Assembly (NCBI RefSeq): GCF_000469465.1
Contig: NZ_KI271876.1
Span: forward strand, 1-42,365
DNA from: Gemella bergeri ATCC 700627
GTDB lineage: Bacteria; Bacillota; Bacilli; Staphylococcales; Gemellaceae
Direction of reading: 5' to 3'
Length of the DNA stretch: 42,365 nucleotides
Made by a program: the position numbers and the translations under genes. Shown piece after piece: positions 9,332 through 25,118 of the stretch (positions are counted from its first letter, which is position 1; each line of letters opens with the position of its first letter). Under the pieces are notes generated by a model. That model made no database searches and was not told the origin of the DNA. It worked only from the letters and a program-made list of their open reading frames with translations.

Positions 9332-9765
9332 AACACTATCTCCTTTAGCAAATTAAATTTTACACTTATTATACTCTAAATAACAAAAAAATAAAATTAT
9401 TTTGAGAGTGCTTGAAAAATATATTTTTAAAAGTATTTATAATATATAGAACTTTAACATATTCTATTCTTTACACCATAGTTATTACCCTTTTATAAAA
9501 TAAACTCTATAAATTTATTTCATACATGATTTGCCTTTTTTGTTTCACATTTACTGTATCTCCACAGTTATTTTTAAGTTTATTTTAAGTTTTTATTTGT
9601 ATTTTTCTGTAAGTCATGATAATATATTTAGTGAGCAACCTAGTTGTGTATTTTTTTAAACACCTATTGATAACGATTATCTCTATCGTGATTTTCTTTA
9701 AAAATTATTTTTAAAATACATAACAAAGTTTTGAATAATAAATATACTAAGAGAGGTTATCTTAA
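9332..9765. promoter_or_regulatory. Divergent control region between hydrolase and NEAT gene
   Basis: Holds the hydrolase promoter on the left and the NEAT gene promoter on the right. For the NEAT gene, TTGTAT (9597-9602), a 17-bp spacer and TAATAT (9620-9625) give a leader of about 130 nt. A second weak pair, TTGTGT and TGATAA, would overlap the Fur-like box. Nothing else is recognised. Confidence 0.5.
9669..9687 (+). promoter_or_regulatory. Fur-like box before the large NEAT gene
   Basis: GATAACGATTATCTCTATC matches most positions of the 19-bp Fur consensus GATAATGATTATCATTATC. It sits 78 bp before the ATG, over or just after the promoter, where iron-loaded Fur would repress. Confidence 0.7.
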
Positions 9766-12700
9766 ATGAAAAAAAATAGTTTATTTACGTTGTTGCTGGC
9801 AGGAGTTGTAACAACCGGTGTAAGTGCACCTTATACGGCACTCAATCATAATAACGTAGCAAATGCTACCGATAAAACTGCCGCTACCAACAAAACTTTA
9901 GATATTAAAAATCTAAAAGACGGGGAATACTCACTTGATGTGAAAATCTTAAATTTCAGTAATGGAAAAACGGCATCAATGGCAAACGGTGCTGTAAAAA
10001 GAGAAAACACACGTCTTATTGTTAGAAATGGGCAATATTTTATCAGACTTTCTTTCCAACCGATTGAACATGGTATGGGAAGTCAAAAATTCAGAGGTTA
10101 CTTAGGTGATTTAAAATATTACAGCGGTGATAAATCTTATGCTGATAGAATGAAAATCGCTGATAATGAATTTAAAGAAACAACAATAGTAGAAAACTAT
10201 AACACTAACGAAAAAGATGACTTTTTCGATACTTACAAAAAACACTATCCTTCTCGAACTGCTTATCCTAAGACAGTAGAATATCCTATTGATAAAAATA
10301 AAATAACTGCTGATAGCAAACTGGTTACTTTTGGTCAGGTCTACGTTCCTGTTATGGATTCTATTAGTGAGGGTCTTGGAACACAAAACATTATACTAAA
10401 TCATGATTTTAGTACACTTAAAGTAATTAAAGTAGCAGAAGATCCGAAACCCATTGAACGATATGTTAACATTCATGTTAAAGATGATACTATAGTATCT
10501 CCTGTAGTTAGAAAAAATGTTGATACTATCGGAAAATTAGTTCAAGAAAACGAGCAAGAATACTTAGTTCTTACCTATTATAGTAAAATCGGTGAAGGTG
10601 AAAAGAATGACGGTCTTCAAAATATTAAATATGCGGATAAAGCTATTGAAAATGCTAAAGACTCTGATTTAAAAACTCCTACAGAGGTAAAAGTAATCCA
10701 AACTTTAAAAACTTCCGAAAAGACTTTTGAAATTTCTCAAGCTAAAATCCCCGTTACCGGTAAAAAAGAAGTTTTTGTTTACGGTGATTTTCAATATCCG
10801 GCAGGCATATTCAAAAAATACGGAATTGTCTCTTGGGATGATAAAAATGTTAATATCAATAAATCACCTAAAGTAGATGCTCCTAAACTATTCTCTCTTA
10901 AACCTGTAGTACATGGAACTACCGTTAAAAAAGCCGGTGACCCTAAGCAGGAATTCGATTTTTCTAAAGACGGTGTTGATTATTCACCATATAACGGTAT
11001 TAACGGTGATAAATTCAAATTAGCTAATAACTACTTCTTCTCATTAGAAGCTGCATTTGAACGACTTAGTCTTGTGAATACTAAAACTCGTTATCTAAAA
11101 TATACCTTAGATGGCAGCGAACCGACATTTTCATCACGAGATGCTGTAGCACGTTTTGCTAATGCCAACCCACATAAACCGGAATTTTACTACAACTTAA
11201 ACATAGATCCTTTTGAAGAAGGTTCAAAAGTACCTACTACCGGTGGAAACTTAACACTAAAAGTAAAAGCATTTAGTGCAGACGGTAAAGAAAGTAGCGA
11301 AACAAAAACTTACGTATTACCTTTTGATAAAGAAACACTTGACAAAACAGAAACTACCGTTGACATCGATGGTACCAAGTACAAAGCTACATTATCTTCT
11401 GACAGAAAATTCTTACTTGATGAAGATGCACGTCTTGAAGCTACCCCTATTTCTGAAGAAATAATAAATAAAACACTGGACAGTAAGATTAATGAACTTG
11501 GCTTAAAAAATGCTAAAACTTTAAAATTAAATATTACTAAAAAAGATGGTTCTAAATTTACTCCTATTACTAAAAACGGTTGGGATGTTGGTGAAAATCC
11601 AATCTTTACTTTAAAACTGGAAAATTATAAAGCAACAGCTAACACTCACGCTTATATCTATGAAAACGGTATTCTTCGACCGGTTCCGACAAAAGCTAGT
11701 AGAACCGGTTTGGAATTCAATGTTAATAGTGATGAAGCATACTTTGTTATCGCTGAAAAAGATACAAAAGCACTAACTGAAGAAAAAATTGCAGAACTTA
11801 AAGAAAAAGCTAAGGAAGCGGAAAAAGTTCTTGCTGAAACTACCAGTATTTCTACTGCAAAATCTAATTTAGAAGCGGAATTACAAAAAGTTAAGAAAAA
11901 AATTAAATACAATAGTTTTACATTAAATGCTGTTCTTCTGCATCTGGAAAACATAGATAAAAACCTAAAAATTCTAAAATCTGAAAAAACAACAGATATA
12001 AAATACTTGCAAAAAAATGCTAAAACTCTAAGCGATATTGTTGATTCTGATATTTTAAAACAATTATTAACACCTGAAAAACTTGCTTCTTTAAATGAAT
12101 TAAAAACACGTATGAATAATTCATTAACAGATACCGAAGCACTATCTAAAAATCTAAAAGAATTACAAACCGCATTAAATACATTAGAGTACAAATACCC
12201 TACTCAAGACGTTGAGTTCGCTATTAAAAAATTCCATCATCCTGAAGAAACTTCAATGGCAAATAATGTATTTGTTAACAAAGGAAAATTAATCTTCACT
12301 CCAACTAAAACTTACTTGGATATTGATTTAAAAACTATGATATTCGGTTCAGTGCATGCTCACTTGTTAGATTTTGATGTCTTTAAAGACCAACTTGATG
12401 GAGAAAAACTACCATATCATGTTGTTAATAAATACGATGACCTTAATTCGCTAACCGGAGAAATCGGTAACTTTAATAAAAAATTGCTCGTTGAATTAGA
12501 AAAAGATGTAAAAAACAGCTATGATGTTCGTGTACCTAATGACGGAATGGGAACTTCAAGACCGGAGGCAAAATTAGTATTCTCTACTACCATTAATCGT
12601 CCTGAAGTGCCAAGTGATGAAGAAATGACAGCAAAAAAACTAAAAGAAACCGTCGAAAATGCAAAAACTGAGATTGAAAAATTATCTGATTTAACTAAAG

Positions 12701-13077
12701 AACAAAAAGAAAAATTTGTTAAACAATTAAATGATGCAAAAGATATTAATTCAGCTAATAAAATCTTAGAAGATGCGAAAAAACAAAACAAAGAAAATAA
12801 ATCTGATAAAGACAAATCAGGTAAAAACGATAACGATAACAATAACAACAACAATAACAACAATAATAACAATAACAACAATAACAACAATAATAACAAT
12901 AATAACAATAATAACAATAATAACAACAATAACAACAATAACAACAATAATAATAATAAACCTACCGATAACGGTAAAAAATTACCTAGTACCGGTATTA
13001 CAGCCACAACTACTGCCGGCTTAGGTTTCTTAACACTGCTTTTCGCTTTGGTTCTTCGTAGAAAAAACAATAAATAA
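9766..13077 (+). CDS. Cell-wall NEAT-domain heme-binding protein with poly-Asn stalk
   Basis: Surface protein of 1103 residues. The order is: signal peptide (about 1-35); NEAT domain A (52-222, SMAN at 71-74); a linker region; a chitobiase C-terminal-like beta domain (about 375-520, YTLDGSEPTFSS); a second beta domain ending AYFVIAE (530-665); an alpha-helical, probably coiled-coil segment (668-805); NEAT domain B (813-947, SMAN again); a helical segment; a run of 40 Asn (1025-1064); and sorting signal LPSTG (1073-1077) with a hydrophobic helix and RRKNNK tail. The two-NEAT architecture recalls streptococcal Shr, although Shr has leucine-rich repeats between its NEATs and no LPXTG. Likely role: capture of heme or hemoprotein at the cell wall under iron limitation, supported by its Fur-like box. 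It is separate from the transporter cluster, with the thiamine operon in between. Confidence 0.85.
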   Translation: MKKNSLFTLLLAGVVTTGVSAPYTALNHNNVANATDKTAATNKTLDIKNLKDGEYSLDVKILNFSNGKTASMANGAVKRENTRLIVRNGQYFIRLSFQPIEHGMGSQKFRGYLGDLKYYSGDKSYADRMKIADNEFKETTIVENYNTNEKDDFFDTYKKHYPSRTAYPKTVEYPIDKNKITADSKLVTFGQVYVPVMDSISEGLGTQNIILNHDFSTLKVIKVAEDPKPIERYVNIHVKDDTIVSPVVRKNVDTIGKLVQENEQEYLVLTYYSKIGEGEKNDGLQNIKYADKAIENAKDSDLKTPTEVKVIQTLKTSEKTFEISQAKIPVTGKKEVFVYGDFQYPAGIFKKYGIVSWDDKNVNINKSPKVDAPKLFSLKPVVHGTTVKKAGDPKQEFDFSKDGVDYSPYNGINGDKFKLANNYFFSLEAAFERLSLVNTKTRYLKYTLDGSEPTFSSRDAVARFANANPHKPEFYYNLNIDPFEEGSKVPTTGGNLTLKVKAFSADGKESSETKTYVLPFDKETLDKTETTVDIDGTKYKATLSSDRKFLLDEDARLEATPISEEIINKTLDSKINELGLKNAKTLKLNITKKDGSKFTPITKNGWDVGENPIFTLKLENYKATANTHAYIYENGILRPVPTKASRTGLEFNVNSDEAYFVIAEKDTKALTEEKIAELKEKAKEAEKVLAETTSISTAKSNLEAELQKVKKKIKYNSFTLNAVLLHLENIDKNLKILKSEKTTDIKYLQKNAKTLSDIVDSDILKQLLTPEKLASLNELKTRMNNSLTDTEALSKNLKELQTALNTLEYKYPTQDVEFAIKKFHHPEETSMANNVFVNKGKLIFTPTKTYLDIDLKTMIFGSVHAHLLDFDVFKDQLDGEKLPYHVVNKYDDLNSLTGEIGNFNKKLLVELEKDVKNSYDVRVPNDGMGTSRPEAKLVFSTTINRPEVPSDEEMTAKKLKETVENAKTEIEKLSDLTKEQKEKFVKQLNDAKDINSANKILEDAKKQNKENKSDKDKSGKNDNDNNNNNNNNNNNNNNNNNNNNNNNNNNNNNNNNNNNNNNNNKPTDNGKKLPSTGITATTTAGLGFLTLLFALVLRRKNNK
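12838..12957 (+). repeat. AAC/AAT trinucleotide tract encoding 40 Asn
   Basis: Forty consecutive AAC or AAT codons in irregular alternation, just before the LPSTG signal. Unit changes stay in frame, so slippage would vary stalk length without inactivating the protein. It probably forms a flexible wall-spanning spacer. Confidence 0.95.
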
Positions 13078-16548: not shown

Positions 16549-18525
16549 ATGAAAAACAACACATTATTAAAAGTTCTTTCTGCTACGGCAATTTTCTCTG
16601 CAATAGCAGCCATTGAAGCCTACAGTCAGGACGAACTTGCATACGCTGCGGAAGATAGTGCTATCCACGCTACAACGGGAGTAAACAAACCTAACACCAC
16701 CCCGAAAGCACAAACTACCGCTGCTACTTCGACTATCTCTAAACAAGATGGTAAAAACTTAAAAAATGATGAAGGTAAAAAAGTTACAGCTGATAGCTAC
16801 GAGGCTGCTACATATAAAAATCCGAATAAAGACAGAGAGATTGATTCAAAAACTGTAAAAAAAGAATTTCCACTTAATGTTCAAGGGCATCTAAGAAATG
16901 CAAACAATAATGATGAACCGTCACTATATGAACCGGCATTAGATAACAATGTTAAAGTCGAAAAAATTGGTAATAAATACAAATATACATTTAGAATTAA
17001 ACCGGGAATTACCGATGTCGGTGGAGAATTTTATAATTTTGAATTAAGTAAAATCATATATCAGGATAAGGTGCTGGAATTAAAAACATTAAGCGAAAAA
17101 CAACGTATTAAAGAAGCATCTATTACATCAGATAAATTATTGGATAAAATTCAATTAGACGGTACTTCTAAATATCCGGACGGACGTGATATGTCTCATT
17201 TCGTCACATTGCAACTATATTATGAAACTGCTCGTAAATGGGAAGACAGACCTATTGTTGAAAAAGACGGTTCTACTGAACCGATTACTCCAAAACCTAC
17301 TAAGCCTACTAAACCTGCAAAACCGGAAAAACCTAAAGAAGAACCTACCCCGGCTAAACCTATTGCTAAAGACCACGAAGCTGAAGCCAACAAAGTTCCC
17401 AACACTTTCCCGACTACAGTAAAAGGAGAACTTAACGGGAGAGATCGTAACGAATCTTCTATCTACTCTAACGCCTTTATTAAAGACGTAAAAGTTGAAA
17501 AAGTTGGAGATAAATATCAATATACTTTCCAAGTAAAAGAAGGAACATCATCTAATATGTTGCTTCGTAACAAACCGTTTACCCTTTCTAAAATTTATTA
17601 TAAAGGTAAAGAAATAACACTTACCAAAGTAGATTCAGCTACTAAATTATATGAGGGTAAAATTGTTACCGATAGTTTATTGGACAAAATTCAGCTAGAT
17701 GTTGTCGTTAATGTAAGGGTAAAAGCCGGTGCAAAACCCCGTTATGAAGATAGAACGACGGAAACTACTTTAGCTTTAAACTTCCCTACGGTAGAAAAAG
17801 CTGACAGTCCTTATAATAGCGTTCCGGCTAAACTGCTTAATGCCAATACCGATAATCTTTCTATGGGTAATCCGGCTTTAGTTAGCGAAAAAACTCGTGT
17901 TGAAAAAATCGGCAATATCTATCACTACTACGTAACATTCAAAGACTTACATGTAGGACCTATTGTAGGTAGTGTGAGCCGTCTTACAGTTAATGGTAAA
18001 GAGGCGGAAGTTAAAGACCTTGGCGGTGATGACCATGAAAAACAATATCACTTCACCAGCTCTGAAAAATTAGCTACTGTTCCTATTACTATGGATATTA
18101 CCGTTGGTGGAAAATTATTCCATGCAAACACTCCGGCACGTCTATCATTCGACTGGTCTAAAGCTACTCCTTTAACTAAGGAGCAAGTTCCTAATGCCAA
18201 AGAAGATAATAAACTTCCAAAAGAACAGAAACCTAGCATTAAAGATGAAAACAAACTGCCTAAAGGACAGGATAAACAAGAAAATAATACTAAAGAAGAT
18301 AATAAAAAAGTTGAACAAGAAACTTCCGATAAAGAAAAAGATAAAAAACAGGATAAAGATTCTCAGTTTAACAACAATAACTTAAATAATCAAAATTCTA
18401 TCGGTAATAATTCAACTAATAAAAAAGTATTACCTAATACCGGCGTTGCAACCGCTACCGTTACCGGACTTGGTTTCTTAACTCTTCTTTCTGCATTGGT
18501 TCTTCGTAGAAAAATTAATAAGTAG
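16549..18525 (+). CDS. LPXTG-anchored protein with three NEAT domains
   Basis: 658-residue surface protein: signal peptide (about 1-33), NEAT 1 (105-231), a Pro/Lys/Glu linker (about 242-275), NEAT 2 (281-414), NEAT 3 (421-540), a charged Lys/Asn/Asp stalk, and LPNTG (628-632) with a hydrophobic helix and RRKINK tail. NEAT 1 and 2 resemble each other (FPLNVQG/FPTTVKG; TSDKLLDKIQLD/TDSLLDKIQLD) and carry SLY or SIY where NEAT 3 and the neighbouring proteins have SMG. None of the three has the C-terminal Met or Tyr-x3-Tyr ligand motif. So at least domains 1 and 2 may bind hemoprotein rather than heme, like the N-terminal NEATs of IsdB/IsdH; that is inference. It has its own promoter and terminator. 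The sorting signal is nearly the same as that of the 1103-residue protein. Confidence 0.85.
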   Translation: MKNNTLLKVLSATAIFSAIAAIEAYSQDELAYAAEDSAIHATTGVNKPNTTPKAQTTAATSTISKQDGKNLKNDEGKKVTADSYEAATYKNPNKDREIDSKTVKKEFPLNVQGHLRNANNNDEPSLYEPALDNNVKVEKIGNKYKYTFRIKPGITDVGGEFYNFELSKIIYQDKVLELKTLSEKQRIKEASITSDKLLDKIQLDGTSKYPDGRDMSHFVTLQLYYETARKWEDRPIVEKDGSTEPITPKPTKPTKPAKPEKPKEEPTPAKPIAKDHEAEANKVPNTFPTTVKGELNGRDRNESSIYSNAFIKDVKVEKVGDKYQYTFQVKEGTSSNMLLRNKPFTLSKIYYKGKEITLTKVDSATKLYEGKIVTDSLLDKIQLDVVVNVRVKAGAKPRYEDRTTETTLALNFPTVEKADSPYNSVPAKLLNANTDNLSMGNPALVSEKTRVEKIGNIYHYYVTFKDLHVGPIVGSVSRLTVNGKEAEVKDLGGDDHEKQYHFTSSEKLATVPITMDITVGGKLFHANTPARLSFDWSKATPLTKEQVPNAKEDNKLPKEQKPSIKDENKLPKGQDKQENNTKEDNKKVEQETSDKEKDKKQDKDSQFNNNNLNNQNSIGNNSTNKKVLPNTGVATATVTGLGFLTLLSALVLRRKINK

Positions 18526-18599: not shown

Positions 18600-18650
18600 A
18601 ATAATGATTATCATTTACTACTTTATTTTTTGTTATTTTTATACTATAAT
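18600..18650 (+). promoter_or_regulatory. Fur-like box and promoter of the heme operon
   Basis: AATAATGATTATCATTTAC (18600-18618) matches the Fur consensus at about 16 of 19 positions, including the full core ATGATTATCAT. It is followed by TTTATT (18622-18627), a 17-bp spacer and TATAAT (18645-18650). This is the best Fur-like box in the window. Confidence 0.75.
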
Positions 18651-18697: not shown

Positions 18698-20017
18698 ATG
18701 AAAAAAAATAATCTATTAAAAGTTTTTTCTGCCGCTGTTATTGTATCCACATTATCAGTGACCGAACTTTCTAATGTGCAATTACCTGCAAAAGTAGCAA
18801 CAGCTGCTGAAAATACACCTAGTTCAGCCGTGTATGATATTCCTGTTAAACTGATGAACTATTATACACCCAATAAGCTTTCTATGGGTAATGCTGCTAT
18901 GGTAAAAGCCACCGTACAAAAAGTGGGTAATCAATTCAAATATACTGTAATACTAAAAGATATCACATTTTTAGGAATGAGTGACGGAATCAGAAAATTC
19001 TGGGTTGAAGGAAAAGAAATACCTCTTAAATCTATAACTTATCCTGATCCTAAGGTTATAAACCCTGTTCAAGTAGAATTTACGAGTCCTGCACTTAAAA
19101 GTTCTTTTGATGTAGAAGTATTTGTTAATGCTATGGAACAAATTATGCCGGGAGGCGGTCGTCAAAAAGCAAAACTTACCTTTGATACTTCAAAAGTCCC
19201 TTCTTCAATAAATGATCTTATTTCTGAAGAAACAAAAACTGAAGAAATTCCATATAAAACTACAAAAGTAGAAAACCCTAATCTTGAAAAAGGAACCGAA
19301 AAAGTTAAAACACCGGGTAAAAAAGGTGTTAAAACTGTTGTTTATACAGTAGTTACTAAAGCTGACGGTACTCAAACCAAAACTGTTAAATCGGAAGCCG
19401 TTACGCAACAACCTGTTAATGAAGTAATTGAAGTTGGTACAAAAGTTGTACAACAAAAACAACCACAAAAAAATATGGTAACTTACTTTGATAATGTCAC
19501 AGTTAAATTGATGCACGCTTATGAACAAGGTAGACCTTCTATGGGTAATCCCGCTTTAGACGGAATCGTTGTATATAAAGATGGTGATACTTATCACTAT
19601 ATTGTTAAATTCAAAGATTTAACTTTCCCATTTGGTGGAAAATCATTTACCGATGGTATCAAACGCTTCTGGGTTAAAGGGGTTGAATATCCTGTAACAC
19701 GTACCGGAGGTCCTAACAATCAAGTTCAAGTTCACTTTACAAGTAAGGAAAAATTAACAAACGTTCCTGTTGCTGTGTATGTTCAAACTATGGAAAACAT
19801 TATGCCGGGAGGCGGTAAACAAAACGCTATCCTAGCGATAGATTGGTCAAAAGCAACTGAACGTCAAGGTGAAGCTCCAGTTGGTGGCGGTGAACCGGGA
19901 GGAGGTTCTAATAACGGTATACTACCTAGAACCGGTTTAGAAACATCTTCTTCACTATTAGCAGGTGCTATTACATTAATGGGTGCTGTTTTACTTGGTA
20001 GAAGAAAACAAAAATAA
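18698..20017 (+). CDS. LPXTG-anchored protein with two NEAT domains and a G5 domain
   Basis: 439-residue cell-wall protein: signal peptide (about 1-36), NEAT 1 (45-168), G5 domain (about 181-249, EEIPYKTTKVENPNL to VIEVGTKV), NEAT 2 (262-386), a Gly-rich spacer and LPRTG (409-413). The two NEATs are clear duplicates: SMGN at 62-65 and 281-284, a shared FW-V-G-E segment, and MEQIMPGGGRQ / MENIMPGGGKQ at 146 and 365. The usual Tyr-x3-Tyr heme motif is replaced by Met-x3-Met, so Met63/Met146-150 and Met282/Met365-369 are candidate axial ligands. Likely job: bind heme at the wall and pass it inward to the membrane-anchored NEAT-Shp protein encoded next. G5 domains may bind wall sugars. It has a strong Fur-like box. 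Confidence 0.87.
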   Translation: MKKNNLLKVFSAAVIVSTLSVTELSNVQLPAKVATAAENTPSSAVYDIPVKLMNYYTPNKLSMGNAAMVKATVQKVGNQFKYTVILKDITFLGMSDGIRKFWVEGKEIPLKSITYPDPKVINPVQVEFTSPALKSSFDVEVFVNAMEQIMPGGGRQKAKLTFDTSKVPSSINDLISEETKTEEIPYKTTKVENPNLEKGTEKVKTPGKKGVKTVVYTVVTKADGTQTKTVKSEAVTQQPVNEVIEVGTKVVQQKQPQKNMVTYFDNVTVKLMHAYEQGRPSMGNPALDGIVVYKDGDTYHYIVKFKDLTFPFGGKSFTDGIKRFWVKGVEYPVTRTGGPNNQVQVHFTSKEKLTNVPVAVYVQTMENIMPGGGKQNAILAIDWSKATERQGEAPVGGGEPGGGSNNGILPRTGLETSSSLLAGAITLMGAVLLGRRKQK

Positions 20018-20028
20018 TAATTAAATAT

Positions 20029-20107
20029 AGTTAGTAGCCCCGCTCTTATTTTGGCATGTTACTACTAACTTTAAAAGCGGGAAAATTTATTCCCGCTTTT
20101 TATTTTT
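20029..20107 (+). terminator. Tandem hairpins and terminator between NEAT genes
   Basis: A first stem AGTTAGTAG / CTACTAACT (20029-20070) is followed by a strong terminator AAAAGCGGGA / TCCCGCTTTT with TATTTTT (20073-20107). The sequence CCCGCT in the first loop could instead pair with AGCGGG of the terminator, giving a possible alternative fold. No separate promoter is evident before the next gene, so some read-through seems needed. Confidence 0.7.
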
Positions 20108-20143: not shown

Positions 20144-21475
20144 ATGAAAAAAATATTGAAATTTGTTGCAATAACAATTACTACTTTAGCTTTTATTGTA
20201 ACATCAAGTAGTGTTCAGTTAAATCATAAAGTTCAAGCTGAAGATAAAGTTTATAGTGTTCCGATTGAGTTATGGCATTCTGAAAATACCGGGCGTTTAT
20301 CAATGGGAAATAAAGCACTGGCTCCTAAGGCTACCGTTAAGGTTCATGATAATAACACCTCAACAATTACGGTTCAATTCGTTCCGATGGATTTTAATAA
20401 TATGCACGGTCATTTACTGTCATTAAGCATTTATTCTTCACCAATTTTTTCCGGTAAATTAACTCCGGCTTCTGTCGTAAGCACCTATAACGATACTAAC
20501 CTTGACGGCGGAACCAGTACCTACCCTAGCAATCTAAGTTTTGACTTCGGAACTGCTAAACCCGATAAAGTCGGAGTTAGAGTTTCTGTTGATGCTATGA
20601 ATAAAATTATGGGTGGCGACGCTTCTCAAAATGCTATTATAAAATTTAACTGGTCAGCTGTAAAACAGGTTTCAGATAATGAAGATAGTAATGCCGATAA
20701 AGATAAAAAAGAAGAGAAAAAGGATGAAAATAAAGCACCGGAAGGATTTGTTACTAAAAAATTAGAAGATTATTTTAAAGAAGATCAAAAAACTAAAAAC
20801 ACCGGTGTTTATAACCTTGATATAACAGGTTCTTATCTAAGTCCATTAACCGGAATTACTGCTGACGGCGGAACTAAAAATGCCGCAATCGGCGAAGGTA
20901 TGGTTCAAGGGGTTATTTCTCCTGTTAATTCCGGCGGAAACTTAAACGATGCACTTAAAAATCAAAAGGCGGGCGGAGAAAAACGTTGGTCTAAAGCCTT
21001 ATTACAAAGAACTAAAGACGGAAAATTATATGCTACCGTTCGAATTCACTTAATGAACTGGGTACAACGTAGTAAAGAACAAGGACCATTTATTAAAGTA
21101 TTGCAAAAAGACGGAGAATTTAAACAAGTTACAGCTTCCGAAACAAAAGTTAATATTGAACAATATAAAGACAGCTATGTTGACTATCGTTTCGAAGTAC
21201 CGAACGAAAACTTCTTAGCAATGGTTCAAATGTACGTAGAACCTATGAACCGTCCGGTTAGATTTTTCGTTGAAGTAAACACCGATACTATTCAAAACGG
21301 AAACGATAATCTTGATATGGAAGTAATAAAAGAAAAAAATTACCTACCGTACTATCTTGGAGGTGGAGCTGTTGTTCTTGTAATAATCGCCGGCATCTTC
21401 ATTGGCATTAAAAAACGTAAAAATAATGTAGTCACCGAAAATCCTACCGAAGAAATCACAAAAGAGAACGAATAA
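20144..21475 (+). CDS. Membrane-anchored NEAT-Shp fusion heme-binding protein
   Basis: 443 residues with a signal peptide (about 1-32). A NEAT domain spans 37-167, with SMGN at 53-56 and AMNKIMGG at 151-158. An acidic/lysine linker follows. The second domain (about 220-380) resembles streptococcal Shp, with IGEGMVQG (Met253) and MYVEPMNRPVRFF (Met368) at the two places where Shp has its bis-methionine heme ligands. A transmembrane helix at about 405-422 and a basic, then acidic, tail end the protein. There is no LPXTG or NPQTN signal, so it sits in the membrane, as Shp does. Its place directly before the IsdE/HtsA-type lipoprotein matches shp-htsABC in Streptococcus pyogenes. Likely role: accept heme from wall NEAT proteins and give it to the lipoprotein. 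The Shp match is from remembered motifs, not a search. Confidence 0.82.
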   Translation: MKKILKFVAITITTLAFIVTSSSVQLNHKVQAEDKVYSVPIELWHSENTGRLSMGNKALAPKATVKVHDNNTSTITVQFVPMDFNNMHGHLLSLSIYSSPIFSGKLTPASVVSTYNDTNLDGGTSTYPSNLSFDFGTAKPDKVGVRVSVDAMNKIMGGDASQNAIIKFNWSAVKQVSDNEDSNADKDKKEEKKDENKAPEGFVTKKLEDYFKEDQKTKNTGVYNLDITGSYLSPLTGITADGGTKNAAIGEGMVQGVISPVNSGGNLNDALKNQKAGGEKRWSKALLQRTKDGKLYATVRIHLMNWVQRSKEQGPFIKVLQKDGEFKQVTASETKVNIEQYKDSYVDYRFEVPNENFLAMVQMYVEPMNRPVRFFVEVNTDTIQNGNDNLDMEVIKEKNYLPYYLGGGAVVLVIIAGIFIGIKKRKNNVVTENPTEEITKENE

Positions 21476-21489
21476 GAGGTTATATAAAC

Positions 21490-22446
21490 ATGAAAAAAAA
21501 ATTATCACTATTATTAACGATTCTTTTAAGTTTTTCACTGATTTTAACTGCTTGTTCTTCTAACAAGAACGGTAACACAACCGGAGATGATCCGAATATT
21601 GCTGATAAGGCTTTTAATGAAACTATTGACCTTACGGGAGTTAACAAAGATAAAAAATCCGAAGAAGAAAACGGTAAACGTGTTGTAATGGATTCTGTTG
21701 CTCTTTGTCAAGTTGCAGATGTTCTTGATATTAAACTTGCGGGTATTCCTACAACAAGATTAGGTCATATGCCAAAAAGATATGAAAATACCGTTCAAAT
21801 CGGCTTGCCTATGAATCCGAATATGGAAGTAATTAAATCAATAAATCCGTCAATCGTTTATTCACCTGATAGTTTACAAGATTGGATTAAAGAAGGATTT
21901 GAAAAAAATAATATTCCTTACAAATTTGTCGATATTCGTAGTGTCAGCGGTTTATATTCTGTAACAGAAGATTTAGCTAAAGAGTTTGGAAAAACTGAAA
22001 AATTTAACCAACTAAAAAAAGAACATGATACATTTTTTGCAGAGTTTAATAAAAAAATAGCCGATAAGAAGAAACCTAAAGTATTAGTTTTAATGGGATT
22101 ACCCGGCAGTTACATGGCTGCTACCGAAAAATCATATGTGGGTAATTTAGTAAAACTTGCGGGAGGAGAAAATATTATTAAAGGCTCTGAAGAATTTACA
22201 CAATTAAACTTAGAAACTGCACTTAATGAAAAACCGGATTACATTTTACGTACTGCACATGCTATGCCTGAAACTGTAATGGAAATGTTCAAAAAGGAAT
22301 TTGAAACAAATAAAAGTTGGTCGCACTTCGATGCGGTTAAAAATAATAAAGTAATTGACCTTGATAATTCTATATTCGGTATGACCGCTACATATGACTA
22401 TCAAAAAGGTCTTAATAACTTATACCAAGTATTTTATGGAAACTAA
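21490..22446 (+). CDS. isdE: Heme ABC transporter substrate-binding lipoprotein (IsdE/HtsA-like)
   Basis: 318-residue lipoprotein; lipobox LTAC places the lipidated cysteine at 22. Fold class is the helical-backbone metal/heme receptor. Heme ligands in IsdE are Met78 and His229. Here Met108 (GLPMNPN) and His257 (RTAHAMPE) occupy the equivalent motifs with almost the same spacing. GIPTTRLGHMPKRY before the Met is also typical. It follows the NEAT-Shp gene by 14 bp and begins the transporter part of the operon. It should receive heme outside the membrane and dock on the permease encoded next. Confidence 0.93.
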   Translation: MKKKLSLLLTILLSFSLILTACSSNKNGNTTGDDPNIADKAFNETIDLTGVNKDKKSEEENGKRVVMDSVALCQVADVLDIKLAGIPTTRLGHMPKRYENTVQIGLPMNPNMEVIKSINPSIVYSPDSLQDWIKEGFEKNNIPYKFVDIRSVSGLYSVTEDLAKEFGKTEKFNQLKKEHDTFFAEFNKKIADKKKPKVLVLMGLPGSYMAATEKSYVGNLVKLAGGENIIKGSEEFTQLNLETALNEKPDYILRTAHAMPETVMEMFKKEFETNKSWSHFDAVKNNKVIDLDNSIFGMTATYDYQKGLNNLYQVFYGN

Positions 22447-22563: not shown

Positions 22564-23538
22564 ATGTTGCGTAATAAAAAAATAATCTCTTTTATTATTC
22601 TTGTCTTGTTATTGCTGGCAACAATATTTGTTTCTGCAAACAGCGGTAGTATTAAGGCGACCGTTTATGAACTTGTTGTTGGAATTTTTAATAATAAATA
22701 CGCTAATGTTAATGCTATTGTAGACGTACGTTTCCCTCGTATTGTTATTACGATTTTGGTGGGAGCGGCTCTTGGTGTTAGTGGTTTACTGCTTCAAACC
22801 GTCTTAAAAAATCCGCTCGTTGATCCAAGTATTATTGGAGTATCCAGCGGGGCTAATTTATTTTTATATCTTGGTATTGGTCTGTTCCCCCAATTATTAA
22901 TGTTTAAAACAGTTTTTTCTATCATAGGGGGGATAATTGGGTTTATTATTATCTATTACCTTGCGGGTCATACTAAAAATAATGTCAAAATCATTCTTAT
23001 CGGTATTGCTATCAGTTATTTCTTTACAGGAATATTAAGTAGCATACAATATATTACTCAATCAAGCCCGTCTACATCATCAGCTTCTAAAACCGTCGCT
23101 CTTGGAACCAAAAACTGGGAAGATGTGCGACTTCTTTTAATATGGATTCCGGTGTTATTAATTATCAGTTTGTTTTTAGCAAAACTATGTAATATTTTTA
23201 CACTTGATGACAATATTATCGCTTCACTCGGAATTAACATTAACAATATACGTTTACTTATTTCATTTGTTGCAGTAGCACTTGCATCTGTTGCAACTGC
23301 GGTTGCCGGTGTTTTAGTATTTTTAGCACTTATAGTACCGCATATCGCAAAAATTATTATCGGGCGTAATCATCTCTACACAATACCTTTTAGTGCTGTT
23401 TTAGGTGCATTTGTATTACTGCTCTTTGATACTTTAGGACGTGTGGTGTTTGCCCCTGTAGAAATTCCTGCGGATCTAATTATGATGATTATTGGTGGCC
23501 CTGCATTTATTATTCTTGTTAAAAGGGGTGTTAACTAA
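22564..23538 (+). CDS. isdF: Heme ABC transporter permease (FecCD family, IsdF-like)
   Basis: Polytopic permease of 324 residues in the FecCD/BtuC family, with about nine or ten helices. Family signatures: VRFPRIVITILVGAALGVSGLLLQTVLKNPLVDPSIIGVSSGA near the N-terminus, and the cytoplasmic coupling region FLALIVPHIAKIIIGRNH. The start has a strong AAAGGAGG site. The stop shares a base with the ATPase start (TAATG), so the two are coupled. It would form the homodimeric channel for heme delivered by the IsdE-like lipoprotein. Confidence 0.93.
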   Translation: MLRNKKIISFIILVLLLLATIFVSANSGSIKATVYELVVGIFNNKYANVNAIVDVRFPRIVITILVGAALGVSGLLLQTVLKNPLVDPSIIGVSSGANLFLYLGIGLFPQLLMFKTVFSIIGGIIGFIIIYYLAGHTKNNVKIILIGIAISYFFTGILSSIQYITQSSPSTSSASKTVALGTKNWEDVRLLLIWIPVLLIISLFLAKLCNIFTLDDNIIASLGININNIRLLISFVAVALASVATAVAGVLVFLALIVPHIAKIIIGRNHLYTIPFSAVLGAFVLLLFDTLGRVVFAPVEIPADLIMMIIGGPAFIILVKRGVN

Positions 23539-24302
23539 TGGAACATATTATTGAAATTAATAATTTATCATTCAAATATAATAATGACACCATGATTTTT
23601 AATAATCTGTCATTAGCTATTGAAAAAGGAAAAATTACCACCCTACTCGGCAAAAATGGTTGTGGTAAAAGCACTTTAATTAAAATACTGGCAAAAAATC
23701 TTCCTTATCACAGTGGCAGTATTCTCTTGGATAACAAAGAATTAAAAAACTATTCTTTAAAACAACTGGCAAGTACGCTTTCCATAGTTTATCAAAAAAA
23801 TGAAACTCCTAAAGAAATTACGGTCTATAACATGGTCAGCTTTGCTCGACTTCCATATCAGAATATCTTTTTCTACAGAAAAACACCGGAAGATATAGAA
23901 AAAATTGATTTTGCATTGGAACAAACTAATCTTACCGATTATAAAGATAAACGTGTTGATGCTTTATCCGGTGGTCAATTACAACGTGTTTATATTGCGA
24001 TGTGCCTTGCTCAAAGCACCGATATTATAATACTTGACGAGCCGACAACGTTTCTTGATATTAAATATCAAAAATCAATTATGACATTGGTAAGAGAGTT
24101 AAATGCACGTTTCGGTATAACTATTATTATGGTGCTTCATGATATTAACCAAGCGTTGACATACAGTGATAATATTATAGCATTGCATAACGGCACGGTA
24201 GTGAAACAAGATAAAGCAAGTGAATTTTATGATACAAAACTGCTAAATACCATTTTTGATGCTGATATACAGATTAGAGATAAAACTGTTATTAGCTGGT
24301 AA
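23538..24302 (+). CDS. Heme ABC transporter ATP-binding protein (FecE/HtsC-like)
   Basis: 254-residue FecE-type ATPase: Walker A GKNGCGKS, Q-loop in VYQKNETP, signature LSGGQ, Walker B IIILDEP and H-loop VLHDIN. It energises heme import with the permease. In Staphylococcus aureus the Isd importer borrows or uses separately encoded ATPases, whereas here, as in streptococcal htsABC, a dedicated ATPase ends the operon. A strong terminator follows. Confidence 0.93.
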   Translation: MEHIIEINNLSFKYNNDTMIFNNLSLAIEKGKITTLLGKNGCGKSTLIKILAKNLPYHSGSILLDNKELKNYSLKQLASTLSIVYQKNETPKEITVYNMVSFARLPYQNIFFYRKTPEDIEKIDFALEQTNLTDYKDKRVDALSGGQLQRVYIAMCLAQSTDIIILDEPTTFLDIKYQKSIMTLVRELNARFGITIIMVLHDINQALTYSDNIIALHNGTVVKQDKASEFYDTKLLNTIFDADIQIRDKTVISW

Positions 24303-24545: not shown

Positions 24546-25118
24546 ATGAACACGAAAGAGAAAATTTTAATAACTGCACGAGATCTTATTTACGAAAATG
24601 GTTACGCCGGAACTTCTGTCAATGATATTTTAGTAGCCGCTAATATCGGTAAGGGACAGTTTTATCATTATTTCGAATCAAAACATGATATAGCTTTAAA
24701 AATTATTGAGTTAAATATTTCTGAGTGGGAACAAAAACTTTTTAAACCTATTTTAATGAGCGATAATAATCCTGATAAAATATTTTGCGATATGATTGAT
24801 TGGTTTTCTAAGGCACAAGAATCGGGAAAACCGATATTTCATGGTTGTCATATAGGGAATCTAATTGTCGAATTTTCTGCTAAAGAAGAATATTTTAGAA
24901 CTTTATTAAGAGATTTATTACTTACTTTAGCTGATTTAATCGCAAAAAATTTAATGAGATTAAATAACAACCGTTTTGATACTTATGGTGTAGCTTTTAA
25001 CGAGGCAAAATTTATTATTGCCGTAATCCAAGGAAACACTCTTCTCCTTAAGGCAACACAAGACATAAATGTTTTCAAAGATAATTTGAATTTATTAAAG
25101 AATAAATATCTTAAATAA
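24546..25118 (+). CDS. TetR/AcrR family transcriptional regulator
   Basis: 190 residues. The N-terminal helix-turn-helix domain (about 5-50) reads NGYAGTSVNDILVAANIGKGQFYHYFESK, typical of TetR. The GQFYHYF form resembles the AcuR/NemR/LmrA subgroup, whose members often respond to reactive electrophiles or drugs. The C-terminal ligand domain is helical and not diagnostic. It starts after GAGGA. It follows the heme importer but has its own promoter, and heme-efflux regulators of several bacteria are TetR proteins. A heme role is therefore possible but unproven. Likely targets in the window are its own palindrome and perhaps the different palindrome at 25226. Confidence 0.88.
   Translation: MNTKEKILITARDLIYENGYAGTSVNDILVAANIGKGQFYHYFESKHDIALKIIELNISEWEQKLFKPILMSDNNPDKIFCDMIDWFSKAQESGKPIFHGCHIGNLIVEFSAKEEYFRTLLRDLLLTLADLIAKNLMRLNNNRFDTYGVAFNEAKFIIAVIQGNTLLLKATQDINVFKDNLNLLKNKYLK

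Follow-up and report, generated by a model that had tools for sequence, protein, structure and literature searches.

The window analysed here, a stretch of 42,365 nucleotides from Gemella bergeri ATCC 700627 (contig NZ_KI271876.1), carries a gene in which a NEAT domain and an Shp domain are encoded in a single open reading frame of 443 residues (Table 1). Genes for an IsdE/HtsA-type heme lipoprotein, a FecCD-type permease and an ABC transporter ATPase follow it, with a TetR-type regulator (24546-25118) directly past the transporter genes, and LPXTG-anchored NEAT proteins are encoded upstream. The original prediction had the bounds of the fusion gene exactly, numbered its residues correctly and placed an IsdE/HtsA-like gene 14 bp downstream; a gene indeed starts there, and its product scores above the TIGR03659 cut-off. 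Met108 and His257 of this lipoprotein align with the Met and His positions of the IsdE structure 2q8p that we take to be heme ligands, and in HtsA the heme ligands are Met79 and His229 (PMC5026354). Further upstream lies the gene for a 1,103-residue LPXTG protein (9766-13077) with two Met-type NEATs and a long Asn run before the anchor, itself preceded by a Fur-box-like site (9669-9687). Altogether, two Fur-box-like sites were found in the window versus 0.09 expected.

Table 1. Features of the G. bergeri window and of related loci (locus handle before the coordinates where these lie outside the window).
Feature	Coordinates	Strand	Basis or remark
LPXTG-anchored protein, two or three divergent NEAT domains	16549..18525	+	
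Fur-box-like site	18600..18618	+	80 bp before NEAT-G5-NEAT gene; 3 mismatches to 19-mer
LPXTG-anchored NEAT-G5-NEAT protein	18698..20017	+	both NEATs with Met at both ligand columns
Terminator-like hairpin	20073..20100	+	between the 18698-20017 gene and the fusion gene
NEAT-Shp fusion gene	20144..21475	+	443-aa ORF, Gemella window
Signal peptide, residues 1 to about 33	20144..20242	+	hydrophobic helix 2-21 in model, then QAED cleavage-like region
NEAT domain, residues 34-171	20243..20656	+	profile against 9w5y; fold matches
Met54 codon (SMGN), predicted NEAT axial ligand	20303..20305	+	aligned to Shr Met997
Met152 codon, predicted NEAT axial ligand	20597..20599	+	aligned to Shr Met1107
Linker, residues 172-217	20657..20794	+	Lys/Glu/Asp-rich; variable in length
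Shp heme-binding domain, residues 218-392	20795..21319	+	PF11545; 2q7a profile and fold
Met253 codon, predicted Shp ligand	20900..20902	+	aligned to Shp Met66
Shp-domain insertion, about 23 residues (260-282)	20921..20989	+	alignment with clostridial Shp
Met368 codon, predicted Shp ligand	21245..21247	+	aligned to Shp Met153
C-terminal membrane helix (about 404-426) and charged cytoplasmic tail	21353..21472	+	sequence, model
IsdE/HtsA-type heme lipoprotein	21490..22446	+	TIGR03659 equivalog, 330 bits, cut-off 298.65
FecCD-type permease	22564..23538	+	PF01032, E=1.2e-74
ABC transporter ATPase	23538..24302	+	PF00005, E=4.3e-34
NEAT-NEAT-TM-Shp-TM-IsdE triple fusion, 1,116 aa	L142:7884-11234		also L172, L174; Peptoniphilus-family lineage
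Lachnospiraceae NEAT-NEAT-Shp fusions	L049:2633-4909, L066:6537-8813		
Divergent homologues of the fusion, sister genus	L023:8808-10307, L024:8279-9826		
Small upstream ORFs	L021:10396-10683, L022:7732-7989, L025:1243-1503, L023:8449-8727, L024:7900-8196		

Sequence comparison confirms that the joining of NEAT and Shp in one Gemella polypeptide is a real and conserved fusion. Of the domain limits first proposed, NEAT at residues 37-167 and Shp at about 220-380, the domains themselves stand while the exact ends move outwards. The linker contains a short conserved helix, KKLEDYF (205-211), which is absent from the stand-alone Shp proteins compared. Membrane anchoring was also foreseen, and the C-terminal membrane helix bears this out, the C-terminus being free of an LPXTG motif; an NCBIfam GG_III-like TM model matches at 406-426, below its cut-off. 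The AlphaFold model of the fusion reaches an overall pTM of 0.45, with pLDDT below 50 in the linker and in the Shp insertion.

Comparison of sequences and predicted structure shows the membrane-proximal part to be a true Shp domain with both methionine ligand positions. The Pfam family HemeBinding_Shp (PF11545) matches with E=7.8e-28 (97.6 bits, cut-off 26.4), a value that excludes a chance match. Furthermore, a ten-sequence profile run against solved structures retrieves 2q7a, the crystal structure of Shp, with E=1.2e-30, and 2q7a is likewise the best fold match of the predicted structure (Z 16.6, rmsd 2.9 over 149 residues, model residues 218-397). The similarity to Shp, initially proposed from motifs, is thus upheld by Pfam profile, structure profile and predicted fold alike, and the comparison with Shp that had been suggested as a check ranked Shp itself above any unrelated fold. 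The two methionines put forward as candidate ligands hold as well: Met253, which ends the motif IGEGM, and Met368, which ends VEPM, align to methionines lying 87 residues apart in the 2q7a chain, a spacing identical to that of the published Shp heme ligands Met66 and Met153 (PMC5026354). When five clostridial Shp proteins of 30-38% identity are aligned with the domain, both fall among the 18 columns that do not vary. The insertion in this domain is common to Gemellaceae and to the triple-fusion lineage described below, whose Shp the Pfam model splits in like manner, and is not seen in the aligned clostridial Shp.

In the single-protein Pfam search the outer half gave no match at E<=1, and in the genome search PF05031 reached 21.5 bits (E=3e-4) with a curated cut-off of 32.8; phmmer with this half alone against PDB sequences returned chance matches only (best E=0.12). 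A profile built from this half and its relatives finds the crystal structure of Shr NEAT2, 9w5y, at E=1.1e-35, and the half aligns clearly with Lachnospiraceae NEATs that exceed the Pfam cut-off. The predicted fold of this half matches NEAT structures from Bacillus anthracis and Listeria (4h8p, Z 13.3; 3sik_B, 12.9; 4myp_A, 12.8; rmsd about 3 over 117-119 residues); since the Shr NEATs (9w5y) are absent among the structural matches listed, the link to Shr is drawn from the profile match. Met54 and Met152 align to 9w5y methionines 110 residues apart, exactly the spacing of Met997 and Met1107, the crystallographic heme ligands of Shr NEAT2 (PMC12796733), and both belong to the 12 columns that are invariant in the alignment with Lachnospiraceae NEATs. 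The motifs SMGN (from residue 53) and AMNKIMGG (from 151) on which a NEAT domain had been predicted do identify one, and of the two methionines in the latter Met152 is the sole predicted ligand, Met156 being Ile or Leu in two homologues. The YxxxY motif with its axial Tyr ligand was not found in the fused NEAT, and as Met152 and Met156 occupy the places of its tyrosines, the domain falls in with the Met-ligated kind known from Shr. Hence, sequence alignment and model comparison identify the outer half as a NEAT domain and place it with the bis-methionine type exemplified by streptococcal Shr. An LWH motif beside the heme pocket is also conserved, with W44 and H45 invariant in intact homologues.

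This ligand type extends beyond the fusion. Among 201 distinct NEAT domains of the survey loci with both ligand columns filled, 184 have Met at both and none has Tyr at the second, a Met/Met share that is biased upwards because the search profile was seeded with Met-type domains. Methionine-ligated NEATs have been reported as a feature of S. pyogenes that sets it apart from other Gram-positive bacteria (PMC12796733); our counts suggest that they are the usual kind in the Shp-linked loci of Clostridia and Gemella.

Within the family, the fusion is present in eight of the nine Gemella genomes examined and in three genomes of a sister genus, and it is the only Shp found in each of these 11 genomes. 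IsdE scores above its cut-off in exactly the same 11, and the remaining Gemella genome (G001) yielded no Shp, IsdE or NEAT match. M54, M152, M253 and M368 are invariant in all 11 intact homologues. Two divergent homologues in the sister genus (L023 and L024; 28-30% identity) have lost M54, M152 and M253, one of them also M368, and no IsdE was found in their genomes, which are 97 and 96% complete. Loss of the heme ligands thus coincides with absence of IsdE, although the two genomes are related and the loss may be one event; these proteins have possibly been recruited to another role. Directly upstream of the NEAT-Shp gene, all five sister-genus genomes, those with divergent forms included, carry a small ORF of 85-98 residues.

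The phylogenetic survey of the two-domain arrangement that the original prediction had called for was carried out by a pattern scan of 84,980 species genomes, from which 80 Shp loci were kept; as the pattern excludes the MGREV motif of streptococcal Shp, the scan probably missed streptococci. The 398 sampled Bacilli genomes gave no Shp beyond our own genome. A NEAT gene stands directly upstream of shp on the same strand at 58 of the 80 loci, and isdE and the permease gene usually lie downstream where the contig is long enough. NEAT within the shp reading frame itself occurs only in Gemella (five loci) and at two Lachnospiraceae-type loci (L049, L066), where both NEAT and Shp exceed their Pfam cut-offs. 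In two clostridial genomes of one family (loci L144 and L145, genomes G1058 and G1090) the Shp model gives several tandem partial matches, perhaps marking a distant Shp-like family.

A shared origin of the Gemella and Lachnospiraceae fusions is ruled out by the Shp tree, which sets the two groups far apart with starred support and counts two changes to the fused state when Gemella cuniculi (L034) is taken as fused. In a NEAT tree from a short search, each NEAT of L049 and L066 clusters with its counterpart in the gene just upstream of shp in the relatives L071 and L104, so that the Lachnospiraceae fusion arose from adjacent genes. In the same tree, the NEATs of the Gemellaceae fusions fall into one clade, separate from other Gemella NEATs, which fits a single fusion before the split of Gemella and its sister genus. 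As far as can be read from the sequences, the NEAT-Shp fusion has been inherited across Gemellaceae and has arisen at least twice overall.

In a Peptoniphilus-family lineage the joining has gone further, and it is the Shp of this lineage that forms the sister group of Gemella Shp (100/98). Its polypeptide runs from a signal peptide through two NEAT domains, a beta region, a membrane helix, a basic loop and a signal-like helix to Shp, and past Shp through a second membrane helix, basic loop and lipobox (LSAC) to IsdE, all three domain types scoring above curated cut-offs (NEAT 2e-14, Shp 7.5e-28, IsdE 330 bits). The frame is equal in length in three genomes of two genera at 93-96% nucleotide identity, with no stop or indel at either junction in L142, L172 or L174; in a fourth genome (L173) the frame is interrupted by a TAA stop a little ahead of the first junction. 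In every domain, synonymous changes are more numerous than non-synonymous changes, while counts at the junctions are few and mixed. An ATG precedes the Shp part, and no ATG, GTG or TTG was found just before the IsdE part. Such a polypeptide would either stay whole or, once inserted, be cleaved at the signal-peptide-like segments within it. On balance we lean towards a picture in which the NEAT-to-Shp heme step takes place within one molecule in Gemella and the whole extracellular relay of this Peptoniphilus-family lineage is built as one polytopic polypeptide of 1,116 residues.

We thus propose, with a probability of roughly 0.7, that the Gemella NEAT-Shp protein is a membrane-anchored two-stage heme chaperone, a bis-methionine relay with its two steps tethered. 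The NEAT domain would receive heme from the longer NEAT proteins with LPXTG anchors whose genes lie upstream; those at 9766, 16549 and 18698, the last being the NEAT-G5-NEAT protein, are likely donors. Heme would then cross the flexible linker, reach Shp in the same molecule and be handed over to IsdE by methionine ligand exchange, followed by import. In S. pyogenes, heme moves on from NEAT to Shp as affinity increases (PMC12796733), Shr gives heme directly to Shp with no Shr-HtsA interaction (PMC3359286), and Met79 and His229 of HtsA displace Met66 and Met153 of Shp (PMC5026354); by analogy, we infer heme binding and intramolecular transfer in the fusion. Because the domains are fused, the Shr-to-Shp type of step would become intramolecular, which would bring donor and acceptor to a higher local concentration and a fixed stoichiometry. 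That one protein could perform both the receiving and the handing-over step, as originally supposed, is backed by the repeated fusion of neighbouring genes, by the triple fusion and by the ligand loss where IsdE is missing. The hairpin separating the fusion gene from the upstream NEAT gene counts against this reading, as do the sub-threshold Pfam score of the NEAT half and the low model confidence of linker and insertion, which leaves the arrangement of the two domains loosely defined.

Alternatively, with both domains binding heme, the fusion could serve chiefly to co-express them or to place them at the surface, and heme would be exchanged between different molecules. The fused NEAT would then work in trans, collecting heme from other surface NEATs or docking them, and linkage would amount to membrane placement. 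Indeed, the separate S. pyogenes proteins exchange heme fast between molecules (PMC3359286), and at 73 of the 80 Shp loci the shp reading frame contains no NEAT. We nevertheless hold this to be unlikely, since at least two independent fusions and the conserved triple-fusion frame suggest that linkage itself is favoured.

Less probable still is a NEAT domain that has lost its place in the heme relay and serves as a docking module for hemoglobin or other NEATs, Shp being loaded directly by the upstream proteins. The conserved W44 and H45 beside the heme pocket could provide the binding surface, and the tandem NEAT receptors IsdB and IsdH, which appear among the fold matches and whose NEATs include hemoglobin-binding domains that do not bind heme, offer precedents; however, both ligand methionines of the fused NEAT are invariant, as in heme-binding NEATs. 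Finally, we give almost no credence to the idea of a plain Shp whose N-terminal, NEAT-like region is inert and serves only as a stalk: the sub-threshold Pfam score of this half would fit, yet the Shr NEAT2 profile match (E=1e-35), the fold match at Z about 13 and the conserved ligand methionines speak against it.

The tethered relay, if correct, bears on a pathway in which Shr, Shp and HtsA of S. pyogenes have been studied as separate proteins and in which kinetics and affinities are still the basis for arguing how hand-off becomes directional. With a natural fusion, linked and unlinked donor and acceptor can be compared in one construct. That neighbouring NEAT, shp and isdE genes have been joined repeatedly also speaks independently for the order NEAT, Shp, IsdE. 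In the open-access papers searched, we found no description of a fused NEAT-Shp protein; a survey of Gemella names NEAT and NEAT-LRR proteins but makes no mention of Shp (PMC7136413).

Among characterized systems, the Shp half resembles S. pyogenes Shp (PF11545, 2q7a) in its fold, its IGxGM and VEPM methionines, its C-terminal anchor with charged tail and its action beside a heme ABC transporter. In contrast to that separate protein, Gemella Shp is preceded by NEAT and linker and carries the 23-residue insertion, and the Shp tree places it well away from the Shp of streptococci, which falls with Lachnospiraceae. The NEAT half shares with S. pyogenes Shr (NEAT1/NEAT2, 9W5Z/9W5Y) the methionine pair equivalent to Met997 and Met1107, but Shr is a large protein of its own and contains domains that interact with hemoglobin, whereas the fusion has a single NEAT and none of these domains was detected in it. 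IsdB and IsdH of S. aureus likewise place two NEAT-type beta-sandwich domains in one surface protein; unlike the fusion, they are tyrosine-ligated, sortase-anchored and without Shp domain. In C. perfringens, a NEAT protein (ChtD), the methionine-bearing Shp-like ChtE and the HtsA-like ChtA are encoded at one locus, though by separate genes (PMC5026354). Of the fused forms, the Lachnospiraceae proteins have NEAT and Shp in one polypeptide by separate origin, while the triple fusion has the same Shp insertion as Gemella and adds IsdE and a membrane helix between NEAT and Shp.
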